Below, piece by piece: positions 32,089 to 50,635 of a stretch of DNA of 64,000 nt. This DNA is from an uncultured Desulfatitalea sp. (GTDB lineage: Bacteria > Desulfobacterota > Desulfobacteria > Desulfobacterales > Desulfosarcinaceae): NCBI GenBank assembly GCA_937868765.1, contig CALMNL010000005.1, positions 1 to 64,000 on the forward strand. The letters are read 5' to 3'. Both the position numbers and the translations under genes were made by a program. The first letter of the stretch is position 1. Every line of letters begins with the position of its first letter. Under the pieces are notes generated by a model that was not told where the DNA came from, made no database searches, and was given only the letters and a program-made list of their open reading frames with translations.

Positions 32089-32550
32089 TTAGAACAATCT
32101 TGAATCCAGCGGGTTTTCCACCCCCGGGCCAATTTTAAACGACTGGAACTCAGGATGGGCTGGGTTGAAAATGAAGTTGTGCTGCTGAGGCACCACTACG
32201 GAGGGAACTTTCAGGACGGCTCCGGACCGTGTTTCCAGCCAGTGCCTGCCGTGATCCTGGGTGGACTCCGGGTAGGGATAATCTTTCCAATCCGAAGGCA
32301 TTTGCCCAATGGAGAGGCTGGACATATTCGAATCATCGAATTCTATCGGGATGGCTATATAATCGCTGATGATTTCGGTTTCCTCGTAATGAACGAGCAG
32401 TTCCAAAATGGCTAAAGACAAGGTGTCCGAGGTATAAATAGCCGCTAAGCCACGCGGGTTCCAGCGGCCACCGTATTCTTTAGCACCACGTCCGGTAAAG
32501 GCATCCTTTTGGAACTTCTTCTTAGTGATTCGCCATGCCGTAAGAATCAT
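32089..32550 (-). CDS. RES-domain toxin
   Basis: A 153-residue RES family protein: WRITKKKFQKDAFTGRGAKEYGGRWNPRG has the conserved Arg and GGRWN core, and LSLAILELLVHYEE carries the conserved Glu. Characterised members deplete NAD+ by glycohydrolase/phosphorylase activity. It overlaps its antitoxin gene by four bases, with the antitoxin first, the normal order for RES/Xre (Res-Xre, MbcTA-like) pairs. Confidence 0.92.
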   Translation of the reverse strand: MILTAWRITKKKFQKDAFTGRGAKEYGGRWNPRGLAAIYTSDTLSLAILELLVHYEETEIISDYIAIPIEFDDSNMSSLSIGQMPSDWKDYPYPESTQDHGRHWLETRSGAVLKVPSVVVPQQHNFIFNPAHPEFQSFKIGPGVENPLDSRLF

Positions 32551-34517: not shown

Positions 34518-35018
34518 TTATGTTGGGGCGTGTTCCCGCTCCAATACCCGGACGAGGTGGGCGCAGGCCGGCGCCACGGCGTTCTGGAGGACTGTCGAAA
34601 GACCCGGCCGGACCTCTTCGGGGATGGATTCGACTTGGGCCACCACGACGGCGATCTTGATCCCGGCCTGCCGCTCGATTTTGGCCAGCAGGCTGACGGT
34701 GGGGAACTGGTGCAGGGAGAAATCGGACATCTTCTTTTCGGGGATCTGGGTGATGGGAATTTCGAAGATTTCGCCGGGGGAGCGGCCCGGAACGTCCACG
34801 GCATCCACGAGCACAATCAGGCCGGGCTTCTTTTCGCTGAGGGTCAGATCCACCAGGGTGTCGCGGATGCTGGTGCCCATGTCCAGGGCCAGGACATCGT
34901 CGGGCAGCGGGTAGTGTTGGGTCAGGTGGGCGATGACCGCCGGGCCGAAGCCGTCGTCGCCGAACAGAATGTTGCCGCAGCCGAAGACGACTGCCGCATA
35001 GTCGAAAAGATCTTTCAT
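34518..35018 (-). CDS. [NiFe] hydrogenase maturation protease
   Basis: A 166-residue HycI/HoxM-type endopeptidase. VVFGCGNILFGDDGFGPAVIAHL holds the conserved Asp that binds Ni, followed by LALDMGTSIRDTLVDL and LIVLVDAVDVPG with the second Asp. It trims the large subunit's C-terminal tail after Ni insertion. GAGGGG precedes ATG 35018; upstream in-frame starts lack one. It is the last gene of the operon, 78 bp after the large subunit, and its presence supports translation of that subunit through the UGA to the cleavable tail. Confidence 0.92.
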   Translation of the reverse strand: MKDLFDYAAVVFGCGNILFGDDGFGPAVIAHLTQHYPLPDDVLALDMGTSIRDTLVDLTLSEKKPGLIVLVDAVDVPGRSPGEIFEIPITQIPEKKMSDFSLHQFPTVSLLAKIERQAGIKIAVVVAQVESIPEEVRPGLSTVLQNAVAPACAHLVRVLEREHAPT

Positions 35019-35096: not shown

Positions 35097-36542
35097 CTAC
35101 GTCTCGTAGTAGTCGACGAGTTCTCCGGTAGCATTCAAAATGGTGATGTCCAGGGCGATACCGCCATCCAGGCGGTGCGTGGCGCAGCTCAGTCAGGGGT
35201 CGTAGGCACGGATCGCCATCTCCACCTTGTTGAGCACCCCCTGGTCGTAGGTGCCGTTCTTGATGAGCTCGGTGGCGGCCTGTTTGACCGAAAGGTTCAT
35301 GGCCGCGTTGTTGTGGGTGGTGCCCACGATAAGGTTGGCTTTGAGGATCAGCCCGTCGGCGTCGGTTTCATAGTCGTGGATCAGGGTGCCGCGCGGGGCT
35401 TCGACGATGCCTACGCCGCGCCCGGCCCTGGGTTTGACCGCCACCCGAACTTCGGTGGAGGTAATTTGCGGATCCTCCAGCAGGGCCACCATGCTCTCCG
35501 CGCACTGCACCAGTTCGATCAGGCGGGCGTAGTGATAGAGCAGCGTCAGGTGGGCCGGACGGCCGAAATGGCTGCGGAACTCTTCCAGCTCGGCCTGGGC
35601 CAGCGGCGTGGCCATCTTGTCGGCCACGTTGATGCGCGCCAGGCAGTTGCTGCGGTAGACCCCGCTGGGATTGGCAAGATCCATGGAGAGTCCGCTGCCC
35701 CAGCGCTTGGCATAGGGAAACTTCTGATAGGACCAGGGCTCCACATGCTCCCCGATGTGGTCGAGGTAGGCGCCGGACGGGAAATCGTCGTAGGAGCCGT
35801 CCGGCTTCATCAGGCGCTGCTTGCCGTCGTAAAAATCCAGGGCGCCGTCGTCGGTCACCGTTCCCAGGTGCCCTACCTTGATGACGCCCAGGGACTTGAT
35901 GGCGTCCAGGTATTTGGCAAAGACGTTCTTTTTGGCGAAATCGATGGTGAACTTGGAGAACTCCAGCAGCTTTTGGGCTTTGCCGAGGATATCTTCGCGC
36001 TCCTTTTCGGTCATCGGCTTGCTGACGCCGCCCGGCATCGAGAAGGTGGGGTGGATGGCGCGTCCGGCGAAATTTTCCAGGATCTGGGCCGTGAGGTGCC
36101 GGAAGTGAACCACCTGCTTGGCGATATCCGGGGCCGCGCCGATGATGCCCACCACGTTGCGGGTGGCGTACTCCGTATCAGGCCCCATGACGAAATCCGG
36201 GGCTGCAAGGAAGTAAAAATTGAGCAGCTTGTCGCCGACATAGGCGATCATCTGCATGAGCCGCCGCAGCTTGACGGCCGCCGGCGGCGGAGTGACGCCC
36301 AGACAGGCATCGCCGGCCTTGCTCGACGCCAGGTGATGGGCCCAGGGGCAGATGCCGCAGATGTGGCAGACGATGCGCGGCATCTCCTCTACGGGCCGCC
36401 CTTCGCAGAATTTTTCAAACCCCCGCAACGCCTGGACATGCATGCGGGTGTCGGCCACGTTGCCGGCATCGTCGAGCTGGATGACCACCTTGGCATGCCC
36501 TTCGATTCGCGTGATCGGTTGAATATTGATGACTTGGCCCAT
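35097..36542 (-). CDS. mvhA: MvhA-type [NiFeSe] hydrogenase large subunit, selenoprotein (UGA at codon 450)
   Basis: A 481-residue large subunit when the TGA at 35193-35195 is read as selenocysteine. The N-terminal Ni ligands are in C62-GIC65-PWAHH. At the C-terminus the frame reads AIRAYDP-Sec-LSCATHR, where the family has DPCxxC; Sec450 takes the place of the first C-terminal Ni-binding Cys. The reading frame then continues for 31 residues ([20 protein letters not shown] and on) to TAG at 35097, the usual tail removed by the protease after His. AAGGAGGTG precedes the ATG. It forms the H2-activating core with MvhG and MvhD. Without Sec the protein would lack half of its Ni site. Confidence 0.93.
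35160..35195 (-). promoter_or_regulatory. Bacterial SECIS-like element of mvhA
   Basis: Sixteen bases after the UGA, ACCGCC-UGGAU-GGCGGU forms a six-pair hairpin with a five-base loop containing GG. The right arm begins 28 bases after the UGA, as in the other three genes of this operon. Confidence 0.8.
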
Positions 36543-36557
36543 GGCTTGACCACCTCC

Positions 36558-37505
36558 TTATCTTCCAGCCGGACGGGCCGGCAGCGGTTTGAGGTTGCCG
36601 TGGGCGCCGGTGTAGCGGTTCATGATGGCGCGGCGGTCCACGACGGTTTTGGGATCGAGGCCGATGGAAGTCATGGCTCCCATCATATCGACCATGGGGC
36701 GGGCGCTCTTGCGGATGGGGCCGAAGCACCCCCGGCAGGGCGTGCGGGCCTGTACGCAGCGCGGCACGCCCGACTTGCCGGCGCATCCGGCCAGGGTGAC
36801 CGGGCCCAGGCAGAGGAAACCCTGCTCGTTGATGCAGCGCATCTTGTCGAGGCCCTCTTCGGGGTTGAAGGCCACATTCTCCAGGCAGCGTTTGACCGGG
36901 CCGCCGGCCGATTTCTTTTCGCGGATCACAGGGCAGGTGTCGCACACGCTGCGTTCGGGCAGGGACCAGGCGGTGCCGCCCCGCAGCAGAGCGGTAATGG
37001 CATCGGCGATCCAGTCCGGGTGGGGCGGGCAGCCGGGGATGGTGATGTCCACTTTCACCACCTCGTCGAGCGCCTTGCAGCTTTCCAGCCACGGGGGGAC
37101 GTTTTCGTGCTTGGGATCGGGGGCCGCATCGGTGGACGGCGACCCGCGAAATACCTTTTCGAAGACTTCGTCGCGGGTGAACATGTTGGCCTGGGAAGGA
37201 ATGCCGCCATAGGCCGCACAGCTTCCCAGGGCAATCAGGATCTTGGTCTTCTTGCGCATCTCCTCCAGGACATGTTTGTGTTCTTCGTTGCGCACGCTTC
37301 CCGATACGATGCCTACGACCGCCTCGGGAATTTCCATGGAAGCGCCCTTGCCCAGCGGTCCGAAGTACTTGTGATCGATCAGGACCGGGATGTGGACGAA
37401 GCTGAGCTGGGGCAGCAGCTCCAGCAGGGCGCCTCCAGTGTTGAGAATGGAAATCTCGCAACCGGAACAGGCGTTCAACCACTCTTCTGCTACGGTAGCC
37501 GGCAT
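36558..37505 (-). CDS. mvhG: MvhG-type hydrogenase small subunit
   Basis: A 315-residue small subunit with the proximal-cluster motif EEWLNACSGCEISILN at the N-terminus, GSCAAYGGIPSQANMF, ITIPGCPPHPDWIADAI and a Cys-rich C-terminal region (CLGPVTLAGCAGKSGVPRCVQ; TPCRGCFGP) for three [4Fe-4S] clusters. No twin-arginine signal is present, so the enzyme is cytoplasmic, as in F420-non-reducing (Mvh) hydrogenases. GGGAGGAG precedes the ATG, and the gene ends 15 bp before mvhA. It passes electrons from the Ni-Fe site to MvhD. Confidence 0.95.
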   Translation of the reverse strand: MPATVAEEWLNACSGCEISILNTGGALLELLPQLSFVHIPVLIDHKYFGPLGKGASMEIPEAVVGIVSGSVRNEEHKHVLEEMRKKTKILIALGSCAAYGGIPSQANMFTRDEVFEKVFRGSPSTDAAPDPKHENVPPWLESCKALDEVVKVDITIPGCPPHPDWIADAITALLRGGTAWSLPERSVCDTCPVIREKKSAGGPVKRCLENVAFNPEEGLDKMRCINEQGFLCLGPVTLAGCAGKSGVPRCVQARTPCRGCFGPIRKSARPMVDMMGAMTSIGLDPKTVVDRRAIMNRYTGAHGNLKPLPARPAGR

Positions 37506-37637
37506 ATTCTCCTCCCTTCAATAAGAATTGTGTCTGGCCGCCTTATACTGGCTGGCCGGGTGAACTGTTTCTCACCTCCTTTATATGGACTTGCAAACGC
37601 TATGGCTGTTCGTGCGAAAGGCAGATTCGCGGTGCCG

Positions 37638-37835
37638 TTACGAGCTCGCAGTCTGCACGGCGGCGCGCCGGCGCGAGTAGACCAGGAATTGGCCGTTGTC
37701 CTGGGAGAGCTGTACTTCGAATCCATTCTGACGATAGGCCTCCATGGTCTGCCGGGCCTGCGCTTCGGTGTCATAGGGCGCGCCGTCCCACACGAATTTT
37801 TTTCCTTCGATTTTTTTCGAAAGCGGTATGGACAT
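37638..37835 (-). CDS. Small uncharacterised protein inside the hydrogenase operon
   Basis: A 65-residue protein (MSIPLSKKIEGKKFVWDGAP, then a YDTEAQARQTMEAYRQNGF helix-strand part). I do not recognise the family. GGAAGGAAAG precedes the ATG, which lies 17 bp after the end of mvhD, so it is very likely translated with the operon. The alternating strand-helix-strand pattern suggests a small alpha/beta fold. No Cys, so no cluster ligand; an assembly or regulatory role is a guess. Confidence 0.7.
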   Translation of the reverse strand: MSIPLSKKIEGKKFVWDGAPYDTEAQARQTMEAYRQNGFEVQLSQDNGQFLVYSRRRAAVQTASS

Positions 37836-37852
37836 GAGGGCTTTCCTTCCTG

Positions 37853-38272
37853 CTAGCCGCGGTTGTTATAGGAACTGGGGCCCAGATCCCGCAGGGTGTC
37901 GGTCATCTGGGTGATCACATCGGCGAACTTCTGGGCTTCCGACGAGGCGATCCATTCGATACGGAACCGCTCCGGTTCAAGGCCGAAATCCTCCAGCATC
38001 AGATCGATGCCCTCGCCTCTGGATTTGGCTCTCACATTACCTTCCAGGTAATGGCAGTCGCCCAGATGTCAGCCGCAGACCAGTACGCCGTCGGCCCCCT
38101 TGGTCAGGGCATCGATGACCAGGTTGGGGTGGATCATGCCCGAGCACATGGTGCGGATGATGCGGGCATTGGACGGATACTGGATGCGCGCCACGCCGGC
38201 CAGGTCCGCGCCGGCGTAGGAACACCAGTTGCAGCAGAACGCGAGAATCAAAGGCTCGAATTGTTCGCTCAT
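37853..38272 (-). CDS. mvhD: MvhD/HdrA-linking iron-sulfur subunit, selenoprotein (UGA at codon 68)
   Basis: A 139-residue protein if the TGA at 38069-38071 is Sec. The first part reads [20 protein letters not shown] and on to GADGVLVCG, then Sec68[11 protein letters not shown] and a C-terminal half typical of MvhD ([20 protein letters not shown]). The family has GCHPGDCHY here, so Sec replaces a Cys that binds the [2Fe-2S] cluster. Stopping at UGA would give a 67-residue fragment without this motif, and the rest has no own start with a ribosome site. MvhD carries electrons from the hydrogenase to HdrA. MvhD/VhuD selenoproteins are known in methanogens. Confidence 0.93.
38035..38071 (-). promoter_or_regulatory. 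Bacterial SECIS-like element of mvhD
   Basis: Fifteen bases after the UGA, CAUUACC-UGGAA-GGUAAUG forms a perfect seven-pair hairpin with a five-base GG-containing loop, almost the same loop as in mvhA. Confidence 0.85.
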
Positions 38273-38318
38273 CTTTTACCCCCGTTTCGCTCTATCCACG
38301 ATGTCAATGGCCTGGTGC

Positions 38319-41300
38319 CTAAATCAGCCCCAGGGCAGCTTCGACCTGGGCGCCCAGCTGCGCCATGGTGAAACCCCGCACGACGATGCCCTGCTTGGGG
38401 CAGGTGGCCATGCAGCTGCCGCACCCCTTGCAGCGCACTTCGTCTACTTCCACCGTCTTTTTGACTTCTCCGCCCTTCATGTACTCCACCAGGGAAAGGG
38501 CCTGGTACGGGCAGGGTTCGATGCAGAAGGCGCACCCGTCGCAGTTCTCGTCCACGGGACTCGAAATGGTCGATTCCATTTGCAGCATCTCTTTGGACAG
38601 GATGGTGGCGGCCCGGGAAGCGGCGGCATGGCCTTCGGCGATGGACTCTTCGATGGGCTTGGGGTAATGGCACAGACCGGCCATGAAGATGCCGTCGGTG
38701 GCTGAATCCAGGGGCCGGATCTTGGCGTGCACTTCGGAGAAGAACCCTTCGGCGTTCAGGGCCACTTTGTAAGTCTGCGACAGCGCGCTGTTGTCGTTGG
38801 GCACGATGGCCGTGGCCAGGGCCAGCACGTCGGCCAGGATCGACACCGGTTGCTGCAGGATGTGGTCCTTGACGGTGATCTTCACCCGGCCGTCGGCCTC
38901 CTCCACCTGGGGCAGATGGTCCAGGGTGTAGCGGATGAAGATGACCCCCTTTTCCCTGGCTTTGGCGTACAGGCTTTCTCTCTCCCCATAGGTGCGCATG
39001 TCGCGGTAGAGGATGAATACTTCCTTCTGCGGATCGAGGGCCTTGAGCTTCAGGGCGTTTTCCACCGAGTGGCTGCAGCAGATCTTGTTGCAGTAAGGCC
39101 GTTCCGGTACCCGGGAGCCCACGCACTGGATGAAGACGACGGTTTTTGCCTTCTGGATGCGTTGGCTTTTCCCGGCGATTTCGACATCCATGTCCAGCAG
39201 GTTCATCACATTGGGGTTCTGCCCCAGCAGGTAGAGGCCCTCCGGCTGGAAGGCCCGGGCGCCGGTGGCCAGCACGGCCACGCCGTGCTCGATCTTTTGG
39301 CCGTCGGATAGGGTCGATACGAAATTGCCCACGAAGCCCGAGGCCTCCTTCACGGTGGCGCCCAAGTGGAGGGCGATCTTGTCGTTGGCCTGGACTTTGC
39401 GGATCACCTCTTCCACGAAAGGCCGAATGGGTTCACCCTTCCAGGTTTTGTCCAGTTTGAGGGCCTGGCCGCCCAATGCCTCCTTCTGCTCGACCAGGTC
39501 GACCCCGAACCCCTGATCGGCAATGGCCAGGGCGCTCACCATGCCGGCGACGCCACCGCCCACCACCAGGGCCCTGCCGGTGACCTTGGCGGTGATGTAC
39601 TCCAGGGGGTCGAGCAGGCGGGCCTTGGCCACCGCTATGTTGACCAGGTCCTTGCACTTCTGGGTGGCCTTTTCAGGTTCGTGCAGGTGGCACCAGGTGC
39701 AGTGATTGCGGATGTTGGCCATCTCGAAGAGGTATTTGTTGAGGCCCGCGTTGCGCAGCATCTCCTGGAAGATGGCCTGGTGGGTGGAGGGGCTGCAGGA
39801 GGCGACCACGATGCGGTTGAGCCGGTGCTCCTTGATCTGCGCGATAATGTCCTGCTGGGAATCCTGGGAGCAGGAGAAGAGGTGGTCCTTGGCGTAGGCC
39901 ACGTCGTGAAGGCCCTTGGCATATTCCACAATGGCGGGCACGTCGGCCACCCCACCGATGTTGATGCCGCAGTTGCAGACGAAAACGCCGACCCGCACCG
40001 GTTCGTCGGCCACGCTGATTTCCTGCGGGAAGGTCTTCTGTTTCCAAAGGGTGCCGCGGCCGGCGGCGATGGCCCCGGTGGCGGCCGAAGCGGCGGCGCT
40101 GGCTTCGGCCACGGTCTGGGGGATGTCCTTGGGCCCGGTAAGTACGCCGCAGGCATACACGCCGGGGCGTGAGGTGGAGACGGGGCGCAGGCAATCGGCT
40201 TCCAGGAAGCGGTTGGGCCCCAGTTGCACCCCCAGGCGGGCCGCCAGGTCCACGGTCTTGTGGGGAATCTCGACGCCGATGGAGAGCACCACCAGATCGA
40301 AGGTGTCGGATTGGGCATGGCCGTTTTCCAGCACATAGCGGATCCTCAGGTCGCCCGTGCCGCTCACCGGTTCGATGGTGTGCACCCGGGAGCGGATCAG
40401 CCGGCCGCCCTGCTGCTTGGCCCGTTCATAGTACTTTTCGAAGTCTTTGCGATGGGTCCGCATGTCCATGAGGAAAACGGTGGTGGAAAGGTCGCTGCCC
40501 AGATGCTCCCGGGCGATGATGGTCTGCTTGAGCGCGGCCATGCAACAGACGGTGGAGCAGTAGGGATTGGCGCCTTCGCGGTGGCTGCGCGATCCCACGC
40601 ACTGCACCCAGGCGATCTTCTTGGGATCTTTGCCGTCCGACCGCCGCTGGATATGGCCTTTGAAGGGCCCGCTGGGGCTGAGCATGCGCTCGAACTCCAG
40701 GTTGGTCATGACGTTGGGGTGCTTGCCGTACAGGTAGCGTTCCGTGTGGCTGGGGTTGAAGGCCTGCAGGCCGGTGGCCAGGATCACGGAGCCCACCTCG
40801 AGTTCGATGGTTTCGTCCTGCTGCTGGTGATCGATGGCACCGGCGGGGCAGACTTGGGCGCAGATCTGGCATCCGCCGGTCTTGAAGTGGGCGCAAGCGC
40901 TGCGGTCGATAGCCGGCGTCTTGGGCACCGCCTGGGCATAGGGGATGTAAATCGGTTTTCTTCCTGCCAGACCCACATCGTATTCCGACGGGATGGGGCG
41001 GAAGTCGTGCCTGGAAATGTCTTCCAGCTTGATGTGGCCGGTGGGGCAGATGGCCACGCAGGCGCCGCAGGTGATGCAATCCTCGGCCTTCATCTGGAAG
41101 GGGGTATCCACCTTGATATCGATGCCGCGCCCGGTCAGGGCGATGGCGCTGTTGCCGATGCGTTCGCAGATCCGGGTGCAGAGCCCACACAGGATGCAGT
41201 CGTCGTTGGCGGTGGTGAACCGCGGCGCTGTGATCCCATACGTCTGGGCCAGCTCCTGGACGAAGGGGGCCTCGGGGCACCGGCTCAGCAGCAGCTCGAC

Positions 41301-41564
41301 GATCAGTTTGCGGATCTGGCGCAGGGCCTCGGTATCGGTCTGGATCCGCATGCCTTCCCAGATGGGATAGTTGCAGGCGGTGACCAGCCGGGTGCGGCGG
41401 CCGTCGAAGAGCTCCACCAGGCAGAGACGGCAGAGCCCGGCCGGCTCCAGAATCGGGTGGTGGCAGAGGGTGGGGATCTCGATGCCGTTCCTGCGGGCGA
41501 CCTGGAGCAGATATTCCCCTTTTTCGCCCTGGACCTCTTTATCGTTGATTTTAAAAGCTACCAT
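38319..41564 (-). CDS. NuoG-type ferredoxin domains fused to partial HdrA plus a second HdrA module
   Basis: A 1081-residue protein. Residues 1-80: [2Fe-2S] domain (CHHPILEPAGLCRLC). About 135-190: two [4Fe-4S] sets (CILCGLCTRIC; CITCGACVAICP). From about 205, KPIYIPYAQAVPKTPAIDRS and CQICAQVCPAGAID continue as the C-terminal part of HdrA, without the preceding Rossmann start, to about 510. A second, complete HdrA-like unit follows: VFVCNCGINIGG, ALVVGGGVAGMVSALAIAD (FAD loop), CVGSRVPERPYCNKICC, and two C-terminal ferredoxin motifs (CDGCAFCIEPCP; CKGCGSCMATCP). The missing HdrA N-terminus is encoded separately at 43992-44378. It would be the hub between NuoEF, MvhD and the HdrD-like subunit. 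Confidence 0.93.
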   Translation of the reverse strand: MVAFKINDKEVQGEKGEYLLQVARRNGIEIPTLCHHPILEPAGLCRLCLVELFDGRRTRLVTACNYPIWEGMRIQTDTEALRQIRKLIVELLLSRCPEAPFVQELAQTYGITAPRFTTANDDCILCGLCTRICERIGNSAIALTGRGIDIKVDTPFQMKAEDCITCGACVAICPTGHIKLEDISRHDFRPIPSEYDVGLAGRKPIYIPYAQAVPKTPAIDRSACAHFKTGGCQICAQVCPAGAIDHQQQDETIELEVGSVILATGLQAFNPSHTERYLYGKHPNVMTNLEFERMLSPSGPFKGHIQRRSDGKDPKKIAWVQCVGSRSHREGANPYCSTVCCMAALKQTIIAREHLGSDLSTTVFLMDMRTHRKDFEKYYERAKQQGGRLIRSRVHTIEPVSGTGDLRIRYVLENGHAQSDTFDLVVLSIGVEIPHKTVDLAARLGVQLGPNRFLEADCLRPVSTSRPGVYACGVLTGPKDIPQTVAEASAAASAATGAIAAGRGTLWKQKTFPQEISVADEPVRVGVFVCNCGINIGGVADVPAIVEYAKGLHDVAYAKDHLFSCSQDSQQDIIAQIKEHRLNRIVVASCSPSTHQAIFQEMLRNAGLNKYLFEMANIRNHCTWCHLHEPEKATQKCKDLVNIAVAKARLLDPLEYITAKVTGRALVVGGGVAGMVSALAIADQGFGVDLVEQKEALGGQALKLDKTWKGEPIRPFVEEVIRKVQANDKIALHLGATVKEASGFVGNFVSTLSDGQKIEHGVAVLATGARAFQPEGLYLLGQNPNVMNLLDMDVEIAGKSQRIQKAKTVVFIQCVGSRVPERPYCNKICCSHSVENALKLKALDPQKEVFILYRDMRTYGERESLYAKAREKGVIFIRYTLDHLPQVEEADGRVKITVKDHILQQPVSILADVLALATAIVPNDNSALSQTYKVALNAEGFFSEVHAKIRPLDSATDGIFMAGLCHYPKPIEESIAEGHAAASRAATILSKEMLQMESTISSPVDENCDGCAFCIEPCPYQALSLVEYMKGGEVKKTVEVDEVRCKGCGSCMATCPKQGIVVRGFTMAQLGAQVEAALGLI

Positions 41565-41578
41565 AGCGTTATCCTCTT

Positions 41579-43432
41579 CTATCGGATGACGACCGCGTCG
41601 AACTTGCAGGCCTCATAGCAGATGCCGCACTTGATGCACTTGTCCTGATCGACTGCATGGGACTCTTTTTTCTTGCCTGCGACGGCCTCCTGGGGGCATT
41701 TCAGAAAACACAGGTGGCAGCCGTTGCAATTCTCCGCATCGATCTCGTAGTGGAAGAGCGGTTTGCAGACGCCGGCAGGACACTTCTTTTCCCGGATATG
41801 CGCCTCGTATTCCTCACGGAAGTAGTGCAGGGTGGTGAGCACCGGGTTGGGGGCCGAGGTCCCCAGGCCGCATAGCGACGCATTTTTCACCATATCTGCC
41901 AGTTCCTGGAGCAGCGCGAGGTCATTTTCTTTTCCTTCGCCCTGGCAGATGTGACCGAGAATATCGGCCATCTGCTTGATGCCCTCGCGGCAGGGAATGC
42001 ACTGTCCGCAGGATTCTTCCTTGAGGAATTCCACGAAGTAGCGGGCCAGATCGACCATGCAGGTATCCTGATCCATGACGATCATGCCGCCTGACCCCAT
42101 CATGGAACCCACTTTGGCCAGTTCATCGAAATCCACCGGCAGGTCGAGGAAGCGTTCGGGGATGCAGCCGCCCGAGGGGCCACCGGTCTGCACGGCCTTG
42201 AACTTCTTCTTCCTGGGGATGCCGCCGCCGATGTCGAAGACGATCTGGCGCAGGGTCGTGCCCATGGGCACTTCCACCAGCCCGGTATTGACCACCTTGC
42301 CCACCAGTGAAAAGATCTTGGTGCCTTTGCTGTGCTCCGTACCGATGCTGCTGTACCAGTCGGCCCCTTTGGTGATGATCATTGGCACGTTGGCGTAGGT
42401 TTCCACGTTGTTCAAATTGGAAGGGTTGTTGCGAAAGCCCTTTTCCACGGTGTGGACATACTTGGCCCGCGGGCGGCCCGGCTTGCCCTCCAGGGAGGCC
42501 ATCAGGGCCGTGGATTCGCCGCATACGAAGGCACCGCCGCCCCGACTGATCTTGATGTCGAACGCCAGCCCGGAGCCCAGGATGTTCTCGCCCAGCAGCC
42601 CACACTTTCGGCACTTGTCCAGGGCGATGGTCAGGTTGGCCACTGCCAGGGGGTACTCATGGCGCACATAGACGTACCCTTCCTTGCTGCCGATGGCCTG
42701 GGCCGCGATGATCATGCCTTCGATCACCGAGTGGGGGTTGCCCTCCAGCAAACTGCGGTCCATGTAGGCGCCCGGGTCGCCCTCGTCGGCATTGCAGATC
42801 ACATAGCGGTCGGCATCGTGTTGGGCGCAGGTTGCCCATTTGATGCCGGTGGGGAAGCCGCCGCCGCCCCGGCCGCGCAGGCCCGATTTCTTGATTTCGT
42901 CGATGATCCCGGCCGGCTCCATTTCGAACAGCGCTTTTTCCAGGGCCTGGTAACCGCCCACGGCCAGGTAGTGATCGAGGCTGGTGGGGTCGATCAAGCC
43001 ATTGTTGGCGAAGATGATCCGCTGTTGGCGCTTGTAGAAAGGGATCTCGTCCTCCTTGACGATTTTCTGTTTGGAGGTCGGGTCCTTGAAGATCAGCTTC
43101 TGGACCAGTTCCCCCTTGACCAGGGTCTGCTCCACGATCTCGGCCACATGCGCTTCCTTGACCTGGGAATAAAAAATGCCCTCGGGATGGATGACCATGA
43201 TGGGGCCTTTTTCGCAAAAGCCATGGCAGCCGGTGAGGCGGACCTCGGTCTTCTCCTGAAGGCCGAATTTTCTCAGTTCGCCCGTCAATGCCCGATGCAC
43301 GTTGGCAGTGCCATAGGCGCCGCATCCCGACCCGGAGCACAGGGAGATAAGGCGCTTGCCGCCCTTGTTGTGCCGGGCACTTAGGGTGGCGCGATAGACT
43401 TGCAGTGCTTCTTGATTCGCGAATGTCACCAT
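41579..43432 (-). CDS. NuoF-type NAD(H)-binding flavoprotein subunit
   Basis: A 617-residue NuoF/HydB-like protein. An N-terminal thioredoxin-like part (CSGSGCGAYGTANV ... TGCHGFCEKGP) is followed by the FMN/NADH core (GLRGRGGGGFPTGIKW; CNADEGDPGAYMDRSLLEGNPH), the N3 cluster motif SCGQCIPCREG and a C-terminal pair of ferredoxin motifs (CNGCHLCFLKCP; CIKCGICYEAC). ATG 43432 is chosen since similarity begins at VTFANQEAL and GGAGGG lies upstream. It exchanges electrons between NAD(H) and the NuoG-HdrA fusion 14 bp downstream. Confidence 0.94.
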   Translation of the reverse strand: MVTFANQEALQVYRATLSARHNKGGKRLISLCSGSGCGAYGTANVHRALTGELRKFGLQEKTEVRLTGCHGFCEKGPIMVIHPEGIFYSQVKEAHVAEIVEQTLVKGELVQKLIFKDPTSKQKIVKEDEIPFYKRQQRIIFANNGLIDPTSLDHYLAVGGYQALEKALFEMEPAGIIDEIKKSGLRGRGGGGFPTGIKWATCAQHDADRYVICNADEGDPGAYMDRSLLEGNPHSVIEGMIIAAQAIGSKEGYVYVRHEYPLAVANLTIALDKCRKCGLLGENILGSGLAFDIKISRGGGAFVCGESTALMASLEGKPGRPRAKYVHTVEKGFRNNPSNLNNVETYANVPMIITKGADWYSSIGTEHSKGTKIFSLVGKVVNTGLVEVPMGTTLRQIVFDIGGGIPRKKKFKAVQTGGPSGGCIPERFLDLPVDFDELAKVGSMMGSGGMIVMDQDTCMVDLARYFVEFLKEESCGQCIPCREGIKQMADILGHICQGEGKENDLALLQELADMVKNASLCGLGTSAPNPVLTTLHYFREEYEAHIREKKCPAGVCKPLFHYEIDAENCNGCHLCFLKCPQEAVAGKKKESHAVDQDKCIKCGICYEACKFDAVVIR

Positions 43433-43464
43433 GACCGAATATCGCCCTCCGTATATCGCTGCCC

Positions 43465-43947
43465 TCAAGAGGCCTTCTGTTTGTATTCGTCCATGATTTT
43501 CAGGACCGCCGAGCGGTCTACGCCGCCATGGGTGTCCTTGTTGACCGTGATGACCGGGCCGGATGCGCAGCAGCCGACGCAACGCACCGCTTCCAGGGTG
43601 AACAATCCGTCGGCGCTGGTCTGGCCTTCGTGGATATTGAGTTTCTCTTGCAGCGCTTCGGCGATCCGCTCGGCACCGCGCACATGACACGCCGTTCCCG
43701 TGCAGACGCTGACGATGAACTTGCCGCGGGGTTCGAGGCTGATGGTTTTGTAAAAGGTGGCGACGCTGTACACCAGGCTGTTGCGGACGCCCAGTTTTTC
43801 GCAGAGCAGCGGGATCACCTCCTGGGGAACGTAATTGTAAATGTTGCTGATGTCCTGCATGATCATCAGCAGCGCTTCGGGATCGGTTTGGTACTTGTCG
43901 ATGATCCCGCTCACCTTGGGCCAATCGATTGCGTTGGTTGTCGTCAT
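43465..43947 (-). CDS. NuoE-type [2Fe-2S] subunit
   Basis: A 160-residue thioredoxin-fold subunit with the four cluster ligands in SVCTGTACHVRGA and AVRCVGCCASGPV. The N-terminal helical part (IDKYQTDPEALLMIMQDISNIYNYVPQEVI) is family-typical. It pairs with NuoF in NADH dehydrogenases, bifurcating hydrogenases and FloxEF-like modules. The ATG at 43947 lacks a strong ribosome site; translation may be coupled to the HdrA N-terminal gene that ends 44 bp upstream. Confidence 0.93.
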   Translation of the reverse strand: MTTTNAIDWPKVSGIIDKYQTDPEALLMIMQDISNIYNYVPQEVIPLLCEKLGVRNSLVYSVATFYKTISLEPRGKFIVSVCTGTACHVRGAERIAEALQEKLNIHEGQTSADGLFTLEAVRCVGCCASGPVITVNKDTHGGVDRSAVLKIMDEYKQKAS

Positions 43948-43991
43948 GGGTTGATTTCGCCCCTGTTCGTTTTTGGATGCGCCGTTCACTG

Positions 43992-44378
43992 TCACGCCGG
44001 CACCGGTTGATAGATCACCGGGCAACTTTCCACACAGGTGCCGCAACCGGTGCAGCGAAGAGGATCGACGCTGCGCGCCCGTTTGCGCACCTTGACCTTG
44101 AAATGCCCCTGGGACCCTTCGAGGGACTCGATATCCGCGTAGGTGATGACCTGGATGTTCAAATGCTGGCCGACCTCGACCAGTTTGGGCGAGATGATTC
44201 ACATGGCGCAGTCGTTGGTGGGAAAGGTCTTGTCGATCTGCGCCATTTTGCCCCCGATGGAGGGGCTCTCTTCCACCAGGTAGACGAAGTAGCCGGAGTT
44301 GGCCATGTCCAGCGCCGCCTGCATGCCGGCGATGCCGCCGCCGACCACCAGCACGGAGCCAATGGGTTGTGCCTTCAT
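43992..44378 (-). CDS. hdrA: Stand-alone HdrA N-terminal module, selenoprotein (UGA at codon 60)
   Basis: A 128-residue protein if the TGA at 44199-44201 is Sec. It reads [20 protein letters not shown] (FAD-binding loop), [19 protein letters not shown], then CAM-Sec60[12 protein letters not shown], exactly where HdrA has the conserved CAMC(I/S)(L/I)(S/T)PK Cys; methanogen HdrA selenoproteins carry Sec at this place. It goes on to [13 protein letters not shown] and ends 8 residues later. GGAGG precedes the ATG. This is the part of HdrA missing from the first HdrA unit of the 1081-residue fusion, so the two polypeptides probably make one HdrA. Confidence 0.9.
44166..44201 (-). promoter_or_regulatory. 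Bacterial SECIS-like element of the hdrA N-terminal gene
   Basis: Fifteen bases after the UGA, CUGGUC-GAGGUC-GGCCAG forms a hairpin. The loop carries AGGUC, like the well-studied E. coli fdhF element. Confidence 0.8.
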
Positions 44379-44393
44379 TCGACGTGCCTCCTT

Positions 44394-45698
44394 CTATAGT
44401 CCGACTTCTTTGAGCTCGGGCCCGAGATAGGTCCGCTCGTTTTCTCCCAGGCAGCCCAGGGAGAGGCAGATCAGGGTCCACAGATGCACCGTGTGGACGC
44501 CGGTTTTGTAATGCTCGGAAAGATCATGAATCTGGGAATGACAGTTATGGCAGGGCGCGACGCAGTAGGTGGCGCCGGTGGCCTGGATCTGCTCCATCTT
44601 CAATTTGCCGTATTCCCGGCGTTCGCTGACGAAGCCCGATTGCAGGGAGCCCCCACCGCCGCCGCAGCAGTAATTGTTCGAGCGGTTGGGATGCATCTCG
44701 ACGAAGTTCTCTTCGCCCACCACTTTTTTGAGGACATAGCGCATCTCTTCGGCGATGGGGTCGCCGTAGGATTTGCGCACGGTCTGGCAGGGGTCGTGGA
44801 GGGTGAACTTGAGCTTGAGGTCTTTGTTCCAGTCGGCGCTGACCTTCAGATCGCCGTTGCGGATCCATTTGGCGTAGTAGTTGAAAATGCTGTCCACCTG
44901 GAAGTTGTGGGGGATCTTGAATCTTTGCAGTCCGGACCGGACTGCGAACAGTTCGTGCCCTCACTCGGTGTTGAGCCACACCTGGCAGCCGAGGTCGTCC
45001 ACCGCCCTGGCCTTGGTGCGGACGATGCGCTCCCAGTTCTGCTCGTCGGCGATGAACATGCAGTAATTTTCACCGGCCCAGCCTTTGGAGCCGTAGGTCC
45101 AGTCCGCACCGGCCCGGTGCAGAATCTTCCACAGCGGCACCATTTCATCCGGCTCGGTGACCGGTTCCCTGGAATTCTGATTCACGAACAGGATCGCCTC
45201 CCGTTTGTCGATGGGCGCTTGCATCTCCTTGAACTCGGGCTGGGTCTCGCGGACCTCGGCCAGCACGTCTTCCACCACGAAGCGAAAGTCCTCTTCCGAA
45301 GCGCCCATGGCGCTGCAGGTGTCGTGTTTGAGCGCCAGGTCGCAGGATGCGAGGATTCCCTTGGGCCTTTTTTCCCTCGGCACCTGCTGGCGTCCGTAAA
45401 AGACGAGCTGGGGGATGTTGATCTTCATGGGGCAGGCATGCAGGCAGCGCTGGCACATGCTGCAGAACCAGACCCACGGCGAGGCGGCGATGGCCTCCTC
45501 CATGCCCAGCAGCGCCATGCGCAGAAATTTGCGGGGGTCCATATCCCCGATGCCGCTGGCCGGGCAACCCGATGAACAGGAGCCGCAGGTCAGGCAGAGG
45601 TTCAGGTTGCCGCCGTCCGGCAGCATGTCTGCAACCCTCTGTTTCAAGCTCAATTTTTTGTCGATGCCGGAGATGACGACCGCCCCTGACGGATCCAT
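44394..45698 (-). CDS. HdrD/DsrK-like iron-sulfur protein, selenoprotein (UGA at codon 246)
   Basis: A 434-residue protein if the TGA at 44961-44963 is Sec. N-terminal half: two [4Fe-4S] motifs (CLTCGSCSSGCP; CSMCQRCLHACP). The middle reads VWLNTE-Sec246-GHELFAVR, where DsrK/HmeD/TmcB/HdrD-type proteins have ECGHA. C-terminal half: HDPCQTVRKSYGD, NNYCCGGGGGS and CVAPCHNCHSQ, the CCG cluster ligands. AAAGGAG precedes ATG 45698, the first gene of the operon. It is the candidate site for disulfide (or other high-potential acceptor) reduction, the counterpart of HdrBC, in one chain. Confidence 0.9.
44927..44963 (-). promoter_or_regulatory. Bacterial SECIS-like element of the HdrD/DsrK-like gene
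   Basis: Fifteen bases after the UGA, GCAGUCC-GGUCC-GGACUGC forms a perfect seven-pair hairpin with a GGUC-containing loop; same spacing and size as in mvhD. Confidence 0.85.
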
Positions 45699-46391
45699 GC
45701 CTGCGCTCCTTTCTACGGGGTTGGAATCACCCCCGCGGTTCTTGGACGGATCTTTGGCTCTAAACCAGGGAAAGGTTTCTAAAATGCACGGTATATTTGA
45801 ATTTGTCTTAAAATTAAGATTAGTTGCTTCGAGCTCCCGGCGTTCCGGCATCCGTGCGGACCAGTAGCATGGAACCGGCATCGACTTCCTGAAGAAGCGG
45901 CGGGTGCCCTATCTTCTGCCTTAGATCGGGTATCGATGGACCAGCGGAACACGGACATACAGCGGTCAACGGGGATCGCTGTTGATCGGCACAAGGAAAA
46001 TTGCGAACAGGCGCTCTCGCACCGTCAGGTCGTCAGGGCAGTTGGTAGCTTTTTTGGAGAAGGATCGCGGCCACGGCGGCGCTGCAAGATCATAAAATGA
46101 ATGGAATTCAGTAAATTAATTTGCTTTATAATAAACAAATCCGAACATGTCAACCAAAATTTTTACGCTGCTGTTCTCCTGCGTGCCGGAAGCGGATTGC
46201 ATCGGCACAAGTCTTTCCTTCAAGTCATCAACCCATGGGCTCGGGCTCGCTGGCGATCCGTTGCGCCCGGTTGCTTCCCGAGGGCCGGGAGCATTGAAGC
46301 GCTTGCTTTGGGGCGGTGGCTACGTTAATAGGGGGGACCGGTGCGAATCGAATTCCCTGGCAGCGGCAACCGACACGACAAAGATAAAACG
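45699..46391. other. Intergenic region between the divergent Hdr operon and aro genes
   Basis: About 640-690 bp with no supported gene. An AT-rich patch at 45779-45830 may hold the Hdr-operon promoter (no clear -35/-10 or -24/-12 seen). On the plus strand TATAAT at 46127-46132 in an AT-rich segment is a possible -10 for aroA, with only a weak -35 and a leader of over 200 bases. Confidence 0.4.
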
Positions 46392-47660
46392 ATGATCGCA
46401 ATAGAAGCCCAACCCATCAAACGAGTGGTTTCGGTACAGGTGCCGGGCTCCAAGAGCTACACCCACCGCCTGCTGATCGCGGCGGCCCTGTCCAATGGCG
46501 TCTGCCGCATCGGCAACCCGCTGCGCAGCGAGGACACCCTGCTGACCCTGGCGGCCCTGCGCTGCATGGGCATTGCCGCCGACGAACCGTCCGGGGCCGT
46601 TCTGATTCGGGGCGCCGGCGGCGTCCTGGCGCCCTGGGCCGAGCCCATCGACCTGGGCAATTCGGGCACCTCCATGCGGCTGCTCGCCGGACTGGCCATT
46701 CTGGGAACGGGAGACTATTGTTTCACCGGATCGGCGCGCATGCAGGAGCGGCCCATGGCCGCGCTGCTGGACAGCCTCCGGCTGCTGGGCATCGAGGCGC
46801 GCGCGGTGCGCGGCAACGGCTGCCCGCCCATCGTGATCCCCGGCGGCCATCCCGGGAGCCGGCGCACCCGCATCGACTGCGGCACCAGCAGCCAATACCT
46901 TTCGGCCCTGCTGCTGGCCGCGCCCTGCCTGGCCCACGGTCTGGAAATCGAGGTGAGCAACGGGCCGGTGTCGCGCCCCTACATCGACATGACCGTGGAT
47001 ATTATGCGCCTGTTCGGCATCGAGCTGACCCGCGACGGGTACACCCATTTCGAGGTGCCCGGCGGCCAGGTTTACCGGGCCGGCGACCACGACGTGGAAC
47101 CGGATGCCTCCCAGGCCGGCTACTTCTGGGCCGCGGGCGCCATCACCGGCAGCCGGGTCAAGGTCCTGGGGATCCGTCGGGACTCGAGCCAGGGGGATGT
47201 GGCCCTGGCCGAGGTGTTCGGTCAGATGGGCTGCCGGGTGGAGCACGAATCCGACGGCATCGCCGTCACCGGCGGCGACCTTGCGGCCATCGACGTGGAC
47301 ATGGGCCACATGCCCGACATGGTGCCCACCCTGGCCGTGGTCGCGGCTTTTGCCCGGGGCACCACCGTGATCCGCAACGTGGCCCATCTGCGGGCCAAGG
47401 AGAGCGACCGGCTGGCCGCGGTCTCCCAGGAACTGGCCAGGATGGGCATCCGGACCGCGGTCGGCGCCGACGAACTGCGCATCACCGGCGGAATCCCCCG
47501 GGGGGCCGCCATCGAGACCTACAACGACCACCGCATCGCCATGTGCTTCGCCGTGGCCGGTCTCAAGGCGCCGGGAACTCAAATCCTGGACGAAGGGTGC
47601 GTCAGAAAATCCTTCCCCAACTATTGGGAAGTATTTCAGACGCTCTACGAAAGGAAATAA
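46392..47660 (+). CDS. aroA: 3-phosphoshikimate 1-carboxyvinyltransferase (EPSP synthase)
   Basis: A 422-residue enzyme that joins shikimate-3-phosphate and PEP. Signatures: [17 protein letters not shown] at the N-terminus (Lys of the PEP site), [14 protein letters not shown], and [19 protein letters not shown] near the C-terminus; the MQERPM segment is also present. The start could be GTG 46341, which has a GGGGGG site, but homology begins near ATG 46392 ([12 protein letters not shown]). It is followed by aroC after 1 bp, beginning a four-gene aromatic amino acid operon. Confidence 0.95.
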
Positions 47661-47661
47661 C

Positions 47662-48762
47662 ATGTCCAGCACCTTCGGCACGCTTTTTCGCGTCTCGACC
47701 TTCGGCGAGTCCCACTGCAAAGGCGTGGGCGCCGTGGTGGACGGCTGTCCGCCCAATCTTGAACTGAGCGAGGCCGACATCCAGCGCCAGCTCGACCGCC
47801 GGCGGCCGGGCCAGAGCAAGATGACCACCGACCGAAAGGAGGCAGACCAGGTGACGATCCTCTCGGGGGTGGAGAACGGCCGCACCCTGGGCACGCCCAT
47901 CGGGCTCTTCGTACCCAACCGCGACCAGCGTCCCGGCGACTATGCCAGCATGTCCCGGACCCCGCGGCCCTCCCATGCCGACTACACCTACCAGATGAAG
48001 TTCGGCATCCGGGCCGCAAGTGGGGGCGGCCGCTCCAGCGCCCGGGAGACCATCGGCCGGGTGGCGGCCGGCGCCATTGCCGAGAAGGTTCTGGCCGAGC
48101 GTTACGGCGTGCAGATCGTGGCCTGGGTCAGCGCGGTGCACGAGGTGCCGGCCATGGCCGTGGAGATGGAGACCATCACCCGGGAGACCGTGGACCAGAG
48201 CGCCGTGCGCTGCCCGGACCCCATTGCCGCCGGCCGTATGATGACGGCCATCCAGGCGGCCCGGGATGCCAAGGATTCCCTGGGCGGCGTGGTCGCCTGT
48301 GTCTGCCGCAACGTGCCGGTGGGGCTGGGCGAACCGGTCTTCGACAAGCTCGAAGCGCTGCTGGCCCACGCCATGCTCTCGATACCGGCCACCAAGGGGT
48401 TCGAGATCGGCTCGGGTTTCGGCGGCACGCTGCTCAAAGGCTCCCAGCACAACGATCCCTTCGTGCAGAAGGGCGACCGCCTGGGCACCCGCACCAATAA
48501 CAGCGGCGGCATCCAGGGGGGCATCTCCAACGGCGAAAGCATCAATTTCCGGGTGGCCTTCAAGCCGCCGGCCACCATCGGCCAGGCGCAGGCCACGGTG
48601 GATTTCGACGGCCGTGACACGGTGCTGGAGGCCAAGGGCCGCCACGATCCCTGCGTGGTGCCCCGGGCCGTGCCCATCGTCGAGTCCATGGCGGCCCTGG
48701 TGCTGATGGATTGCGTGCTGCGCCAGGCGATGCGCTGCACCGGGAGCCTGCGGCCATGCTGA
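47662..48762 (+). CDS. aroC: Chorismate synthase
   Basis: A 366-residue enzyme converting EPSP to chorismate with reduced FMN. Signatures: [41 protein letters not shown], and [15 protein letters not shown] at the C-terminal end. AAAGGAAA precedes the ATG. No flavin reductase domain is fused. Its last bases overlap the aminotransferase start by 7 bp. Confidence 0.96.
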
Positions 48763-49904
48763 AGGACGAACCCCACTTTTCCAGGCGGCTTGCGGCCGTC
48801 AGCGAATCCAAGACCACGCGCATTTTCACCCTGGCCCAGGAGCTGCGGCGCCAGGGCCGGGAGATCATCAGCCTGGCCGTGGGCGAACCCGATTTCGACA
48901 CTCCCGCCCCGGTGATCGCCGCCACCCAAAAGGCCCTCGCCGAGCAGCACACGCGCTACGGGCCGGTGCCCGGCGAGCCGGCGCTGCGCGAACGGCTGGC
49001 CCAGGCCTTCGACGGCTGCACGGCCGACCACATCCTGGTGACCAACGGCGCCAAGCAGGCTCTCTACTCCCTTTTTCAGGTGCTGTGCGACCCGGGCGAC
49101 GAGGTGATCCTGCCCAAGCCCTGCTGGGTGAGTTTCACCGAGCAGATCGCACTGGCCGGCGGCCGGCCGGTGCTGGTCGAGACGGCGGATGACTTCCAGC
49201 TCGATGCGGCGCGCATTCGGCGGGCCATCACCGCGCGCACCCGGGCCGTTTTGATCAATTCGCCCAACAACCCCACCGGCGCGGTCTATGCGCCCGAAGC
49301 GGTTGCGGCCGTGGCGCGCCTGGCCGCCGAGCGGGGCCTCTACCTGATCTCCGACGAGGCTTACCATGCCTACACCTTCGACAGCCGGTCCCATGTGGCG
49401 GCGGCCACCGTGAGCCCGGACCCGGCGCGGGTGGTCACCGTACGCAGCTTTTCCAAGCACTACAACATGACCGGCTTCCGGCTGGGTTACGTGGCCGCGG
49501 ACAAAGCCATCATCCAGGCCCTGGCCCGGCTCCAGAGCCACACCACCGGCAATGCCTGCACCTTCGCCCAGCACGGCGCCCTGGCGGCCCTCTCCATGGA
49601 CCAGGCGGTGGTGGCCGAGCGCTGCGCCAAACTGCAGCGGCGGCGGGACCTGGCGCTGGCCCGCACCCGGGAGCTCTTTCCCTGCGCACCGGGGCAGGGG
49701 GCCTTTTATCTTTTCCCCGACGTGCGCAGCCGGCTGCGGCCCGGCGAGACCAGCGCGGACCTGGCCGCCCGGCTGCTGGACCAGGCCGGCGTGGCCCTGG
49801 TGCCCGGCGAGGCTTTCCACGGGCCGGGCCATATCCGTATCTCCTTCGGTATCGGCCCCGAGATGCTGGCCCGCGCCTTCGACAAAATCAGAGAGGTGTT
49901 ATGA
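48756..49904 (+). CDS. PLP-dependent aminotransferase (class I/II)
   Basis: A 382-residue fold-type I aminotransferase: [23 protein letters not shown] and the PLP Lys in [16 protein letters not shown], with a C-terminal HIRISFGIG Arg segment for the substrate carboxylate. In the aro-tyr context it likely transaminates prephenate, phenylpyruvate or 4-hydroxyphenylpyruvate, but aspartate is possible. The ATG at 48756 sits inside the end of aroC and the 3' end overlaps the next gene (ATGA). Confidence 0.9.
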
Positions 49905-50635
49905 TCGGATTGATCGGCTACGGCCGCTTCGGACGTCTCACCGTGCGCCACATGTCTCCGGAATTCAAGGTGGTGGTGCACACCCGGGCAGTGGACAAAG
50001 ACGCGGACATCAACGATGCCGGCGGCCGCCTGGTCTCCCTGGAAGAGGCTTGCGCCCAGAAGATCGTCATCCTTTGCGTGCCCATCTCGGCCATGCCGGC
50101 CACCCTGGAGCGCATCGCGCCGTTGCTGGCACCCAGGACCATCGTGGCCGACGTCTGCTCGGTCAAGGAAATGCCGGCCCGGTGGATGCAGTCCCTGCTG
50201 CCCGAACACGTGGAGATCCTGGCCACCCATCCCATGTTCGGGCCGGACAGCGCGGGCAAGAGCCCCGCGGGCCACAAGATCGTCTTGTGCCCCGTGCGCA
50301 TCGCCCCCCACCGCTACAAACGCATCCGGCAATGGCTGGCAGAAAAACAGTTGGTGGTCATCGAAACCACGCCGACCCAGCACGACCGGAAAATCGCCGT
50401 CACCCTCTCGCTGACCCACTTCATCGGCCGCAGCCTGTCACAGTTCGGTGCGGCACCCCTGGACATCGACACCGAAGGCTACCGGCGGTTGCTGCACATC
50501 CTGGGGGTGGTCAACAACGACACCTGGCAGCTGTTCGAAGACATGCATCGCTTCAACCCCTATGCCCGTGAAAAGCGTCAGGCCTTCATGGACGCCATGG
50601 CGCGCATCGATGCGCAGCTCAGGGCCATCGAATAG
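49901..50635 (+). CDS. tyrA: Prephenate/arogenate dehydrogenase
   Basis: A 244-residue NAD(P)-dependent dehydrogenase: [13 protein letters not shown] Rossmann loop, DVCSVKEMPARWM and ATHPMFGPDSAG, which match TyrA and especially plant-like arogenate dehydrogenases; KIAVTLSLTHFIGRSL contains the catalytic-region His. It oxidatively decarboxylates prephenate or arogenate toward tyrosine. It lacks chorismate mutase and ACT domains and is shorter than many TyrA proteins, so feedback control must differ. Last gene of the operon. Confidence 0.9.
   Translation: MIGLIGYGRFGRLTVRHMSPEFKVVVHTRAVDKDADINDAGGRLVSLEEACAQKIVILCVPISAMPATLERIAPLLAPRTIVADVCSVKEMPARWMQSLLPEHVEILATHPMFGPDSAGKSPAGHKIVLCPVRIAPHRYKRIRQWLAEKQLVVIETTPTQHDRKIAVTLSLTHFIGRSLSQFGAAPLDIDTEGYRRLLHILGVVNNDTWQLFEDMHRFNPYAREKRQAFMDAMARIDAQLRAIE

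Follow-up and report, generated by a model that had tools for sequence, protein, structure and literature searches.

The locus analysed here raises the question of why a bacterium should encode, as a gene of its own, only the front part of HdrA. In the window, i.e. the whole 64,000-nucleotide stretch of DNA under study, the gene for this protein (HdrA-N; coordinates are given in Table 1) starts with ATG at 44378, immediately downstream of an AAGGAGG Shine-Dalgarno sequence that bears out the good ribosome site proposed in the preliminary description. It carries an in-frame TGA at codon 60 (44201-44199) and ends with TGA at 43994-43992; reading the internal TGA as selenocysteine (Sec) gives a product of 128 residues. 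Residues 8-122 match the NCBIfam HdrA2 profile at 2.6e-47 and the best solved HdrA chain is matched at 6.6e-46, and the homology of this predicted protein to HdrA is far above chance. The C-terminus lies nine residues past the CxxCxxCxxxC motif (Cys109-Cys119). In an alignment of 33 of the 37 homologues, the three glycines of the GxGxxG start of the TrxR-like FAD domain (G13, G15, and G18) and all six Cys/Sec positions are invariant (33/33). Both the frame and the HdrA2 match agree with the earlier view of a separate gene that encodes the FAD start, the NDCAM-Sec segment and the first ferredoxin motif and then stops. Similarly, the suggestion that Sec is placed as in methanogen HdrA is supported by a gap-free alignment of residue 60 with C197 of Methanothermococcus HdrA (5odc_A). 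A CxxU motif is given for HdrA in a selenoproteome review (PMC13188914).

Table 1. Predicted features of the split hdrA locus and its operon (window coordinates)
Feature	Coordinates	Strand	Family match
HdrD/HmcF/TmcB-like selenoprotein (Sec307), upstream, start codon uncertain	44394..45881	-	
HdrA-N, 128-aa selenoprotein: FAD Rossmann start, NDCAM-Sec60, CxxCxxCxxxC half-ferredoxin	43992..44378	-	
Sec codon UGA, codon 60 of HdrA-N	44199..44201	-	
Bacterial SECIS-like stem-loop 3' of the UGA, AGGU loop	44166..44183	-	
HdrA inserted ferredoxin, first half (Cys109, 112, 115, 119)	44022..44054	-	
NuoE (BfuC-type), 160 aa	43465..43947	-	
NuoF (BfuB/HydB-type), 617 aa, N-terminal 2Fe-2S and C-terminal 4Fe-4S regions	41579..43432	-	
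NuoG-N::HdrA-C::HdrA fusion, 1081 aa, complement of HdrA-N	38319..41564	-	
NuoG/BfuA-type N-terminal domain of the 1081-aa protein, ~residues 1-185	41010..41564	-	
HdrA-C piece of the 1081-aa protein, ~residues 191-505, with E292, K346 and the second half-ferredoxin	40050..40994	-	
Second HdrA unit of the 1081-aa protein, ~residues 522-1081, own Rossmann start	38319..40001	-	
MvhD selenoprotein (Sec68)	37853..38272	-	PF02662 FlpD, 3.1e-52
MvhG/VhuG hydrogenase small subunit	36558..37505	-	
MvhA/VhuA [NiFeSe] hydrogenase large subunit (Sec450, DPULSCATH)	35097..36542	-	
Hydrogenase maturation protease HycI	34518..35018	-	PF01750, 2.2e-16

The UGA of HdrA-N is very likely decoded as Sec, since the codons at the candidate stem-loop are constrained and both selB and a tRNA-Sec gene (72.4 bits) are present in this genome. 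The AGGU loop occupies nucleotides 23-26 past the UGA, and the same 16 bases are found at the stem-loop in all 16 Sec homologues compared, the window included, and in none of three Cys homologues. At the codon level, codons 66-70 (5/5) are identical across 21/21 Sec homologues. This test covers 21 of the 26 Sec loci: L130, L134, L137, and L143 were omitted as short or close to loci used, and L226 is a near copy of L224. In the same homologues, none of the 41 invariant residues outside codons 61-76 keeps a single codon, and four other invariant residues within codons 61-76 are likewise not codon-invariant; all five codons 66-70 together occur in none of 11 Cys homologues. Position 60 of HdrA-N is filled by Cys in some homologues. 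Reading of the UGA as a true stop, yielding a 59-residue peptide, is ruled out by the codon constraint together with these Cys homologues.

A short HdrA-N followed by NuoE was observed in at least 17 genomes among 60 relatives, the source included. Twenty stretches were fetched by a high-scoring HdrA-N (L130-L145, n = 16, and L146-L149, n = 4). In the former sixteen, HdrA-N is followed by NuoE (16/16), NuoF (15/16), a whole NuoG::HdrA protein (13/16), and then an MvhD match (12/16), the missing genes falling at contig ends. In the wider set of 41 stretches, chosen by a high-scoring HdrA-N or a NuoG::HdrA junction, HdrA-N precedes NuoE in 38. The search for short HdrA proteins beside NuoE that had been suggested for this locus thereby returned 25 separate HdrA-N genes (126-138 residues; 23 Sec and 2 Cys; window included), and 13 loci have an in-frame HdrA-N::NuoE fusion (288-306 residues; 3 Sec and 10 Cys). 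The remaining three stretches (L211, L225, and L227) have no HdrA-N adjoining the junction. In the fused forms, both joints are in frame.

The NuoG::HdrA junction itself (E <= 1e-60) was detected in 20 of 395 genomes of the phylum, and 19 of these 20 also have HdrA-N followed by NuoE. In 17 of them the pair adjoins the junction locus, and in G095 and G444 it lies elsewhere; in the twentieth (G353) the contig begins inside nuoF. In G095 (L224/L225), HdrA-N-NuoE lies about 22 kb from NuoF-NuoG::HdrA-C, and in G444 (L226/L227) the two parts are on different contigs, both parts being retained in either genome. The block is also carried by a contig titled Spirochaetia (L086). A peptide-pattern search of genome contigs returned mostly uncut HdrA and HdrL.

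The sole point in favor of a sequencing error, a frameshift, or a decaying gene is that the length of this gene falls far below that of hdrA, and we find the explanation hardly credible. When the HdrA-N frame is extended to 43468, seven more TGA and one other stop are encountered and no HdrA appears, and a six-frame search of the window detected no HdrA piece between HdrA-N and the gene for the 1081-residue protein, the next piece beginning only at 40994. Many genomes assembled independently of one another show the same break, NuoE and, contig permitting, NuoF lying between the parts, and both the protein and the SECIS-like element are conserved. Since the break recurs at 38 loci, and in view of the downstream reading and the six-frame search, we rule out a frameshift or assembly error that would join this gene to a longer HdrA, a doubt attached to it from the outset.

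The remainder of HdrA is found in the 1081-residue protein encoded downstream of NuoF. HdrA-N covers positions 141-256 of the HdrA2 profile, and the first HdrA stretch of the 1081-residue protein, which lacks a Rossmann start, covers 257-564. The break, at profile position 256/257, separates the first half of the HdrA inserted ferredoxin from the second, with Cys109, 112, 115, and 119 on HdrA-N and Cys224, 232, 235, and 239 on the longer chain; in the second HdrA unit of that chain (residues 522-1081) the inserted ferredoxin was not matched. E356 and K409 of Methanothermococcus thermolithotrophicus HdrA, residues near flavin N5, correspond to E292 and K346 of the 1081-residue protein, which are invariant in all 32 aligned homologues (of 34). 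At the NCBIfam HdrA2 cut-off of 1100 bits, neither protein passes alone (161.4 bits for HdrA-N and 738.3 for the 1081-residue protein), and a one-chain HdrA comprising the FAD domain and the inserted ferredoxin is absent from this locus, its chain being split. As judged from these predicted proteins, HdrA is divided here into two complementary halves, and the division recurs across genomes. The tie to NuoE, NuoF, and the 1081-residue protein suggested in the preliminary description is upheld, as the two HdrA halves are complementary and NuoE and NuoF are encoded between them. Its proposal of a free-standing module is not, because the longer protein resumes HdrA at profile position 257.

The split form is an exception within its own genome. 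Ten HdrA-N matches were found there at E < 1e-20, of which nine are paired in frame with HdrA-C in one chain and only the 128-residue protein has its HdrA-C in another gene; second HdrA units do not enter into this pairing count. For a weaker HdrA-N hit (C7:400519, 9.4e-14), no HdrA-C was detected at 1e-25. In predicted single-chain structures, built on shallow alignments of 33 and 32 rows, the least certain regions are residues 52-60 and 124-128 of HdrA-N and 190-244 of the partner, which also has shorter low-confidence stretches at 297-299, 945-956, and the C-terminus. The low pLDDT of these regions is a weak argument for reassembly of the chains.

A different possibility is that the 128-residue protein acts as an independent electron-transfer adaptor with its own flavin and an Fe-S cluster, docking on HdrD, MvhD, or NuoEF. 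It would fit the separate gene with its own ribosome site, and also the existence of Cys-type short copies near HdrD and MvhD. Six short HdrA-N copies without NuoE were found outside the 41-stretch set (L146-L149, L067, and L115). Those of L146-L149 are of the Cys type, have 132-144 residues, and stand beside HdrD and one or two MvhD with no adjoining HdrA-C, the L149 contig ending 0.6 kb downstream of the short gene. With no HdrA-C beside it, this third kind of short HdrA-N may conceivably have a stand-alone role. The L115 copy looks damaged, and in L148 a 935-residue molybdopterin oxidoreductase with a NuoG-like N-terminus is encoded near the short HdrA-N. For the protein in the window, however, we consider an adaptor unlikely: the second halves of its FAD domain and of its ferredoxin are absent and are supplied by the 1081-residue protein, HdrA-N and NuoE of the NADH module form a single chain at 13 of 38 loci, and the predicted isolated fold has low confidence at the Sec loop.

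It is also conceivable that HdrA-N joins the complex without completing a FAD site, so that the first HdrA unit of the partner would be a non-flavin Fe-S wire and HdrA-N a Sec relay between HdrD and MvhD. Both HdrD and MvhD are encoded in the same operon, and the second HdrA unit of the 1081-residue protein has its own Rossmann start, so the complex could bifurcate there. Nevertheless, the conservation of the GxGxxG glycines (33/33) and of E292 and K346 (32/32) is not expected of a non-flavin wire, and we regard such a relay as quite improbable.

The proteins encoded between the two HdrA halves point to an NADH module of the bifurcating type. NuoF aligns over residues 28-614 to HydB (7q4v_B) and over residues 22-614 to 8a6t_B, described as 'electron bifurcating hydrogenase HydB'. 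In contrast, complex I chains such as 2fug_1 align to residues 135-550 only, and a complex I-type NuoEF instead of a bifurcating one is ruled out by the HydB match beyond this core. The nearest solved chain to the NuoG domain (residues 19-182) is 9mqx_A of an electron-bifurcating tungsten aldehyde oxidoreductase (7.3e-42), and C34, C45, C48, C64, and eight more Cys are invariant (32/32), in keeping with a BfuA homologue of the type that binds 2Fe-2S and 4Fe-4S clusters. Since NuoF matches HydB outside the complex I core and 9mqx_A is nearest to the NuoG domain, the predicted NuoE-NuoF-NuoG-N module looks like a Bfu core, which handles NAD(H) and ferredoxin together (PMC9304861).

The gene order HdrA-N, NuoE, NuoF, NuoG::HdrA-C is the one expected if a nuoEFG cassette had been dropped into hdrA. 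We favor, with a probability of roughly 80%, the reading that the 128-residue protein is the front of a split HdrA, that a bifurcating-type NADH module (nuoE, nuoF, and the N-terminus of nuoG, corresponding to BfuC, BfuB, and BfuA) lies inside hdrA, and that the chains reassemble. Reassembly of one HdrA from the two chains is what we infer from the complementarity of their sequences. The separated parts in G095 and G444 and the six short copies without NuoE count against this reading. Apart from this, NuoE and NuoF (41579-43947) are 44% and 64% identical to those of a genome of the same genus (G001, L131), and HdrA-N, NuoG::HdrA, MvhD, and MvhG are 86-93% identical to their counterparts there. 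With another genome (G032, L139), the identities of NuoE and NuoF are 69% and 77%. To judge by these comparisons, NuoE and NuoF look as if they had been displaced in place.

The region of HdrA that is cut here is known to accept another insertion. In type III HdrA (HdrL), a GltD domain is inserted in the loop of the inserted ferredoxin (PMC12054007), and this NAD(P)H module was proposed to replace ferredoxin by NAD(H) (PMC2702500, PMC12054007). GltD-type family matches were obtained for all seven inserts tested, those of six uncut HdrL proteins and that of L067; in the trees, the HdrL label denotes an in-frame gap of more than 900 bases, with GltD confirmed in these seven inserts. L067 (7965-12423) is a split HdrL, in which the gene for a 135-residue HdrA-N precedes one for a GltD::HdrA-C protein of 1339 residues. 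The present locus has in common with HdrL an NAD(P)H module in the inserted-ferredoxin region, the rest of HdrA being kept. However, HdrL is one chain with one GltD, whereas here the module is NuoE-NuoF-NuoG and HdrA is cut in two, about 30 residues before the GltD joint of HdrL. The type III arrangement, with GltD in one chain, was not found here, as NuoE, NuoF, and NuoG-N are encoded between the two parts of HdrA.

That all split forms go back to one origin was rejected with a tree of the combined N and C parts (121 rows, 29 of them split; AU p 0.00138), a quick tree with several long branches and of pieces that may have recombined. In another quick tree of the HdrA core, the GltD-type L152 and L153 fall inside the main split clade, of 22 rows with 20 split ones (support 97); once six long rows had been removed, this clade was absent from the supported sets listed for the row of the window. 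These sequence data would fit a socket in HdrA where NAD(P)H modules have been exchanged repeatedly.

Four predicted selenoproteins are encoded in one operon (35097-45881), namely HdrD-like (Sec307), HdrA-N (Sec60), MvhD (Sec68), and MvhA (Sec450). The motifs of Group 3c MvhA are L1 ICGxCxxxH and L2 AYDPCxxCATH (PMC6085437), and both are recognized in the MvhA of the window as ICGICPWAH and AYDPULSCATH, with Sec as the first Cys of L2. Among the 16 stretches of close relatives, HdrD is located upstream in two (L130 and L131) and MvhG/MvhA downstream in one (L131), the L130 contig ending earlier; of the 22 more distant stretches L206-L227, six have MvhD, MvhG, and MvhA downstream (L206, L207, L210, L211, L214, and L217). 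L139 and L143 have no hydrogenase and have instead a DsrC gene (PF04358; L139:512-829 and L143:16988-17305) some kb past MvhD, with 4Fe-4S proteins between.

Several other genes of the window were noted. A 65-residue ORF between MvhD and MvhG (37638-37835, minus strand) has no Pfam match at 1e-5. The minus-strand gene at 32089-32550 encodes a RES-domain protein (PF08808, 9.8e-28), which may be the toxin in a toxin-antitoxin pair formed with the adjoining ORF. On the other side, a set of aromatic amino-acid genes, comprising aroA, aroC, an aminotransferase gene, and a prephenate dehydrogenase-like gene, is divergently oriented (46341-50635, plus strand).

If the two chains reassemble, the binding site for FAD would comprise the Rossmann start of HdrA-N together with E292, K346, and the remainder of the 1081-residue chain. 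Because the break falls in the inserted-ferredoxin loop that bears GltD in HdrL, the bifurcating FAD and probably two ferredoxin 4Fe-4S clusters would form across the interface of the chains. Classical 2[4Fe-4S] ferredoxins bind each cluster through three Cys of one half and a fourth Cys of the other, and on this pattern both clusters would have ligands on both chains. The Bfu module, through the NuoG domain, may exchange electrons with HdrA via the rebuilt ferredoxin, at the place where NADH use has been proposed for type III HdrA. Hydrogen would enter via MvhAGD, and the high-potential branch might leave via the Sec-containing HdrD, with DsrC trisulfide or some other disulfide as a possible acceptor. 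The low-potential branch may run to or from NAD(H) and ferredoxin via NuoEF; this reaction, with its substrates, is suggested by analogy with known family members. The fuller model is accordingly tentative, and we would put it somewhat below even odds: FAD and both 4Fe-4S clusters would be built across two chains, the loop would be a socket that has repeatedly taken up NAD(P)H modules, either GltD within a single chain or NuoEFG/Bfu with the chain cut, and two bifurcating engines coupled in series would connect H2, NAD(H)/ferredoxin, and a disulfide.

Several known systems share parts of this arrangement. The methanogen HdrABC-MvhAGD complex has in common with it the FAD residues of HdrA, the Sec/Cys position, and the MvhAGD hydrogenase. 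However, HdrA of that complex is a single chain, an NADH module is lacking, and HdrBC stands in place of HdrD. The Flx proteins are different NAD(P)H subunits, and their HdrA is uncut. FlxABCD-HdrABC links HdrA to NADH in sulfate reducers (cited in PMC10553843 and PMC12054007). The Bam-Bfu complex of class II benzoyl-CoA reductase shares an HdrA-type module and the BfuBC core, made up of NuoE and of a NuoF with additional Fe-S regions, and its BfuA (BamI) is listed as a separate subunit (PMC9304861). Here, BfuA is fused to the back half of the split HdrA, and a hydrogenase takes the place of benzoyl-CoA reductase.

The closest precedent is the glpC-hdrA-frhD-frhG-frhA selenoprotein operon of Syntrophobacter fumaroxidans and Desulfotalea psychrophila (Zhang 2006, PMC1794560), which has the same set of Sec genes, GlpC/HdrD, HdrA, FrhD/MvhD, and FrhA/MvhA. 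An interrupted hdrA with an 'unknown' insert (hdrA_N-unknown-hdrA_C) was already remarked there; in the passages concerned, the insert is not named NuoEFG and no 128-residue HdrA-N gene is mentioned, so that it may be either HdrL or the present arrangement (PMC1794560). By gene content, the four-selenoprotein set of the window is the 2006 operon with NuoEFG inside hdrA. Among the genes named for the Hdr loci of Desulfobacterium autotrophicum HRM2 is MvhD, and NuoE/NuoF do not occur in the text (PMC2702500). A supplement is cited for HdrABC-MvhD and NuoEFG of Desulfatiglandales in the main text of PMC13343851, and the relevant lines of PMC6129605 note only NuoEFG in D. anilini; either source may contain a description of the split. 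Thus, the individual parts, namely Sec-containing HdrA, the operon, HdrL, and Bfu, are already known and the 2006 remark comes close; a description of the NuoEFG split with its small Sec half was not found in the accessible portions of the literature searched (HdrA with Nuo, Bam, HdrL, Bfu, and selenoproteins).

The proposed reading explains an odd short selenoprotein as half of a split enzyme. A survey of HdrA excluded proteins under 300 residues (PMC12054007); by such an exclusion, or when UGA is read as a stop, one half of an enzyme of this kind would be missed, which calls for caution in annotation with respect to size filters and UGA-as-stop. The locus also poses a test case, a flavin bifurcation site whose FAD fold and ferredoxin would be shared between two chains. 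Finally, a single loop of HdrA emerges as a likely exchange site for NAD(P)H modules, which may bear on how electron-bifurcating complexes are assembled.
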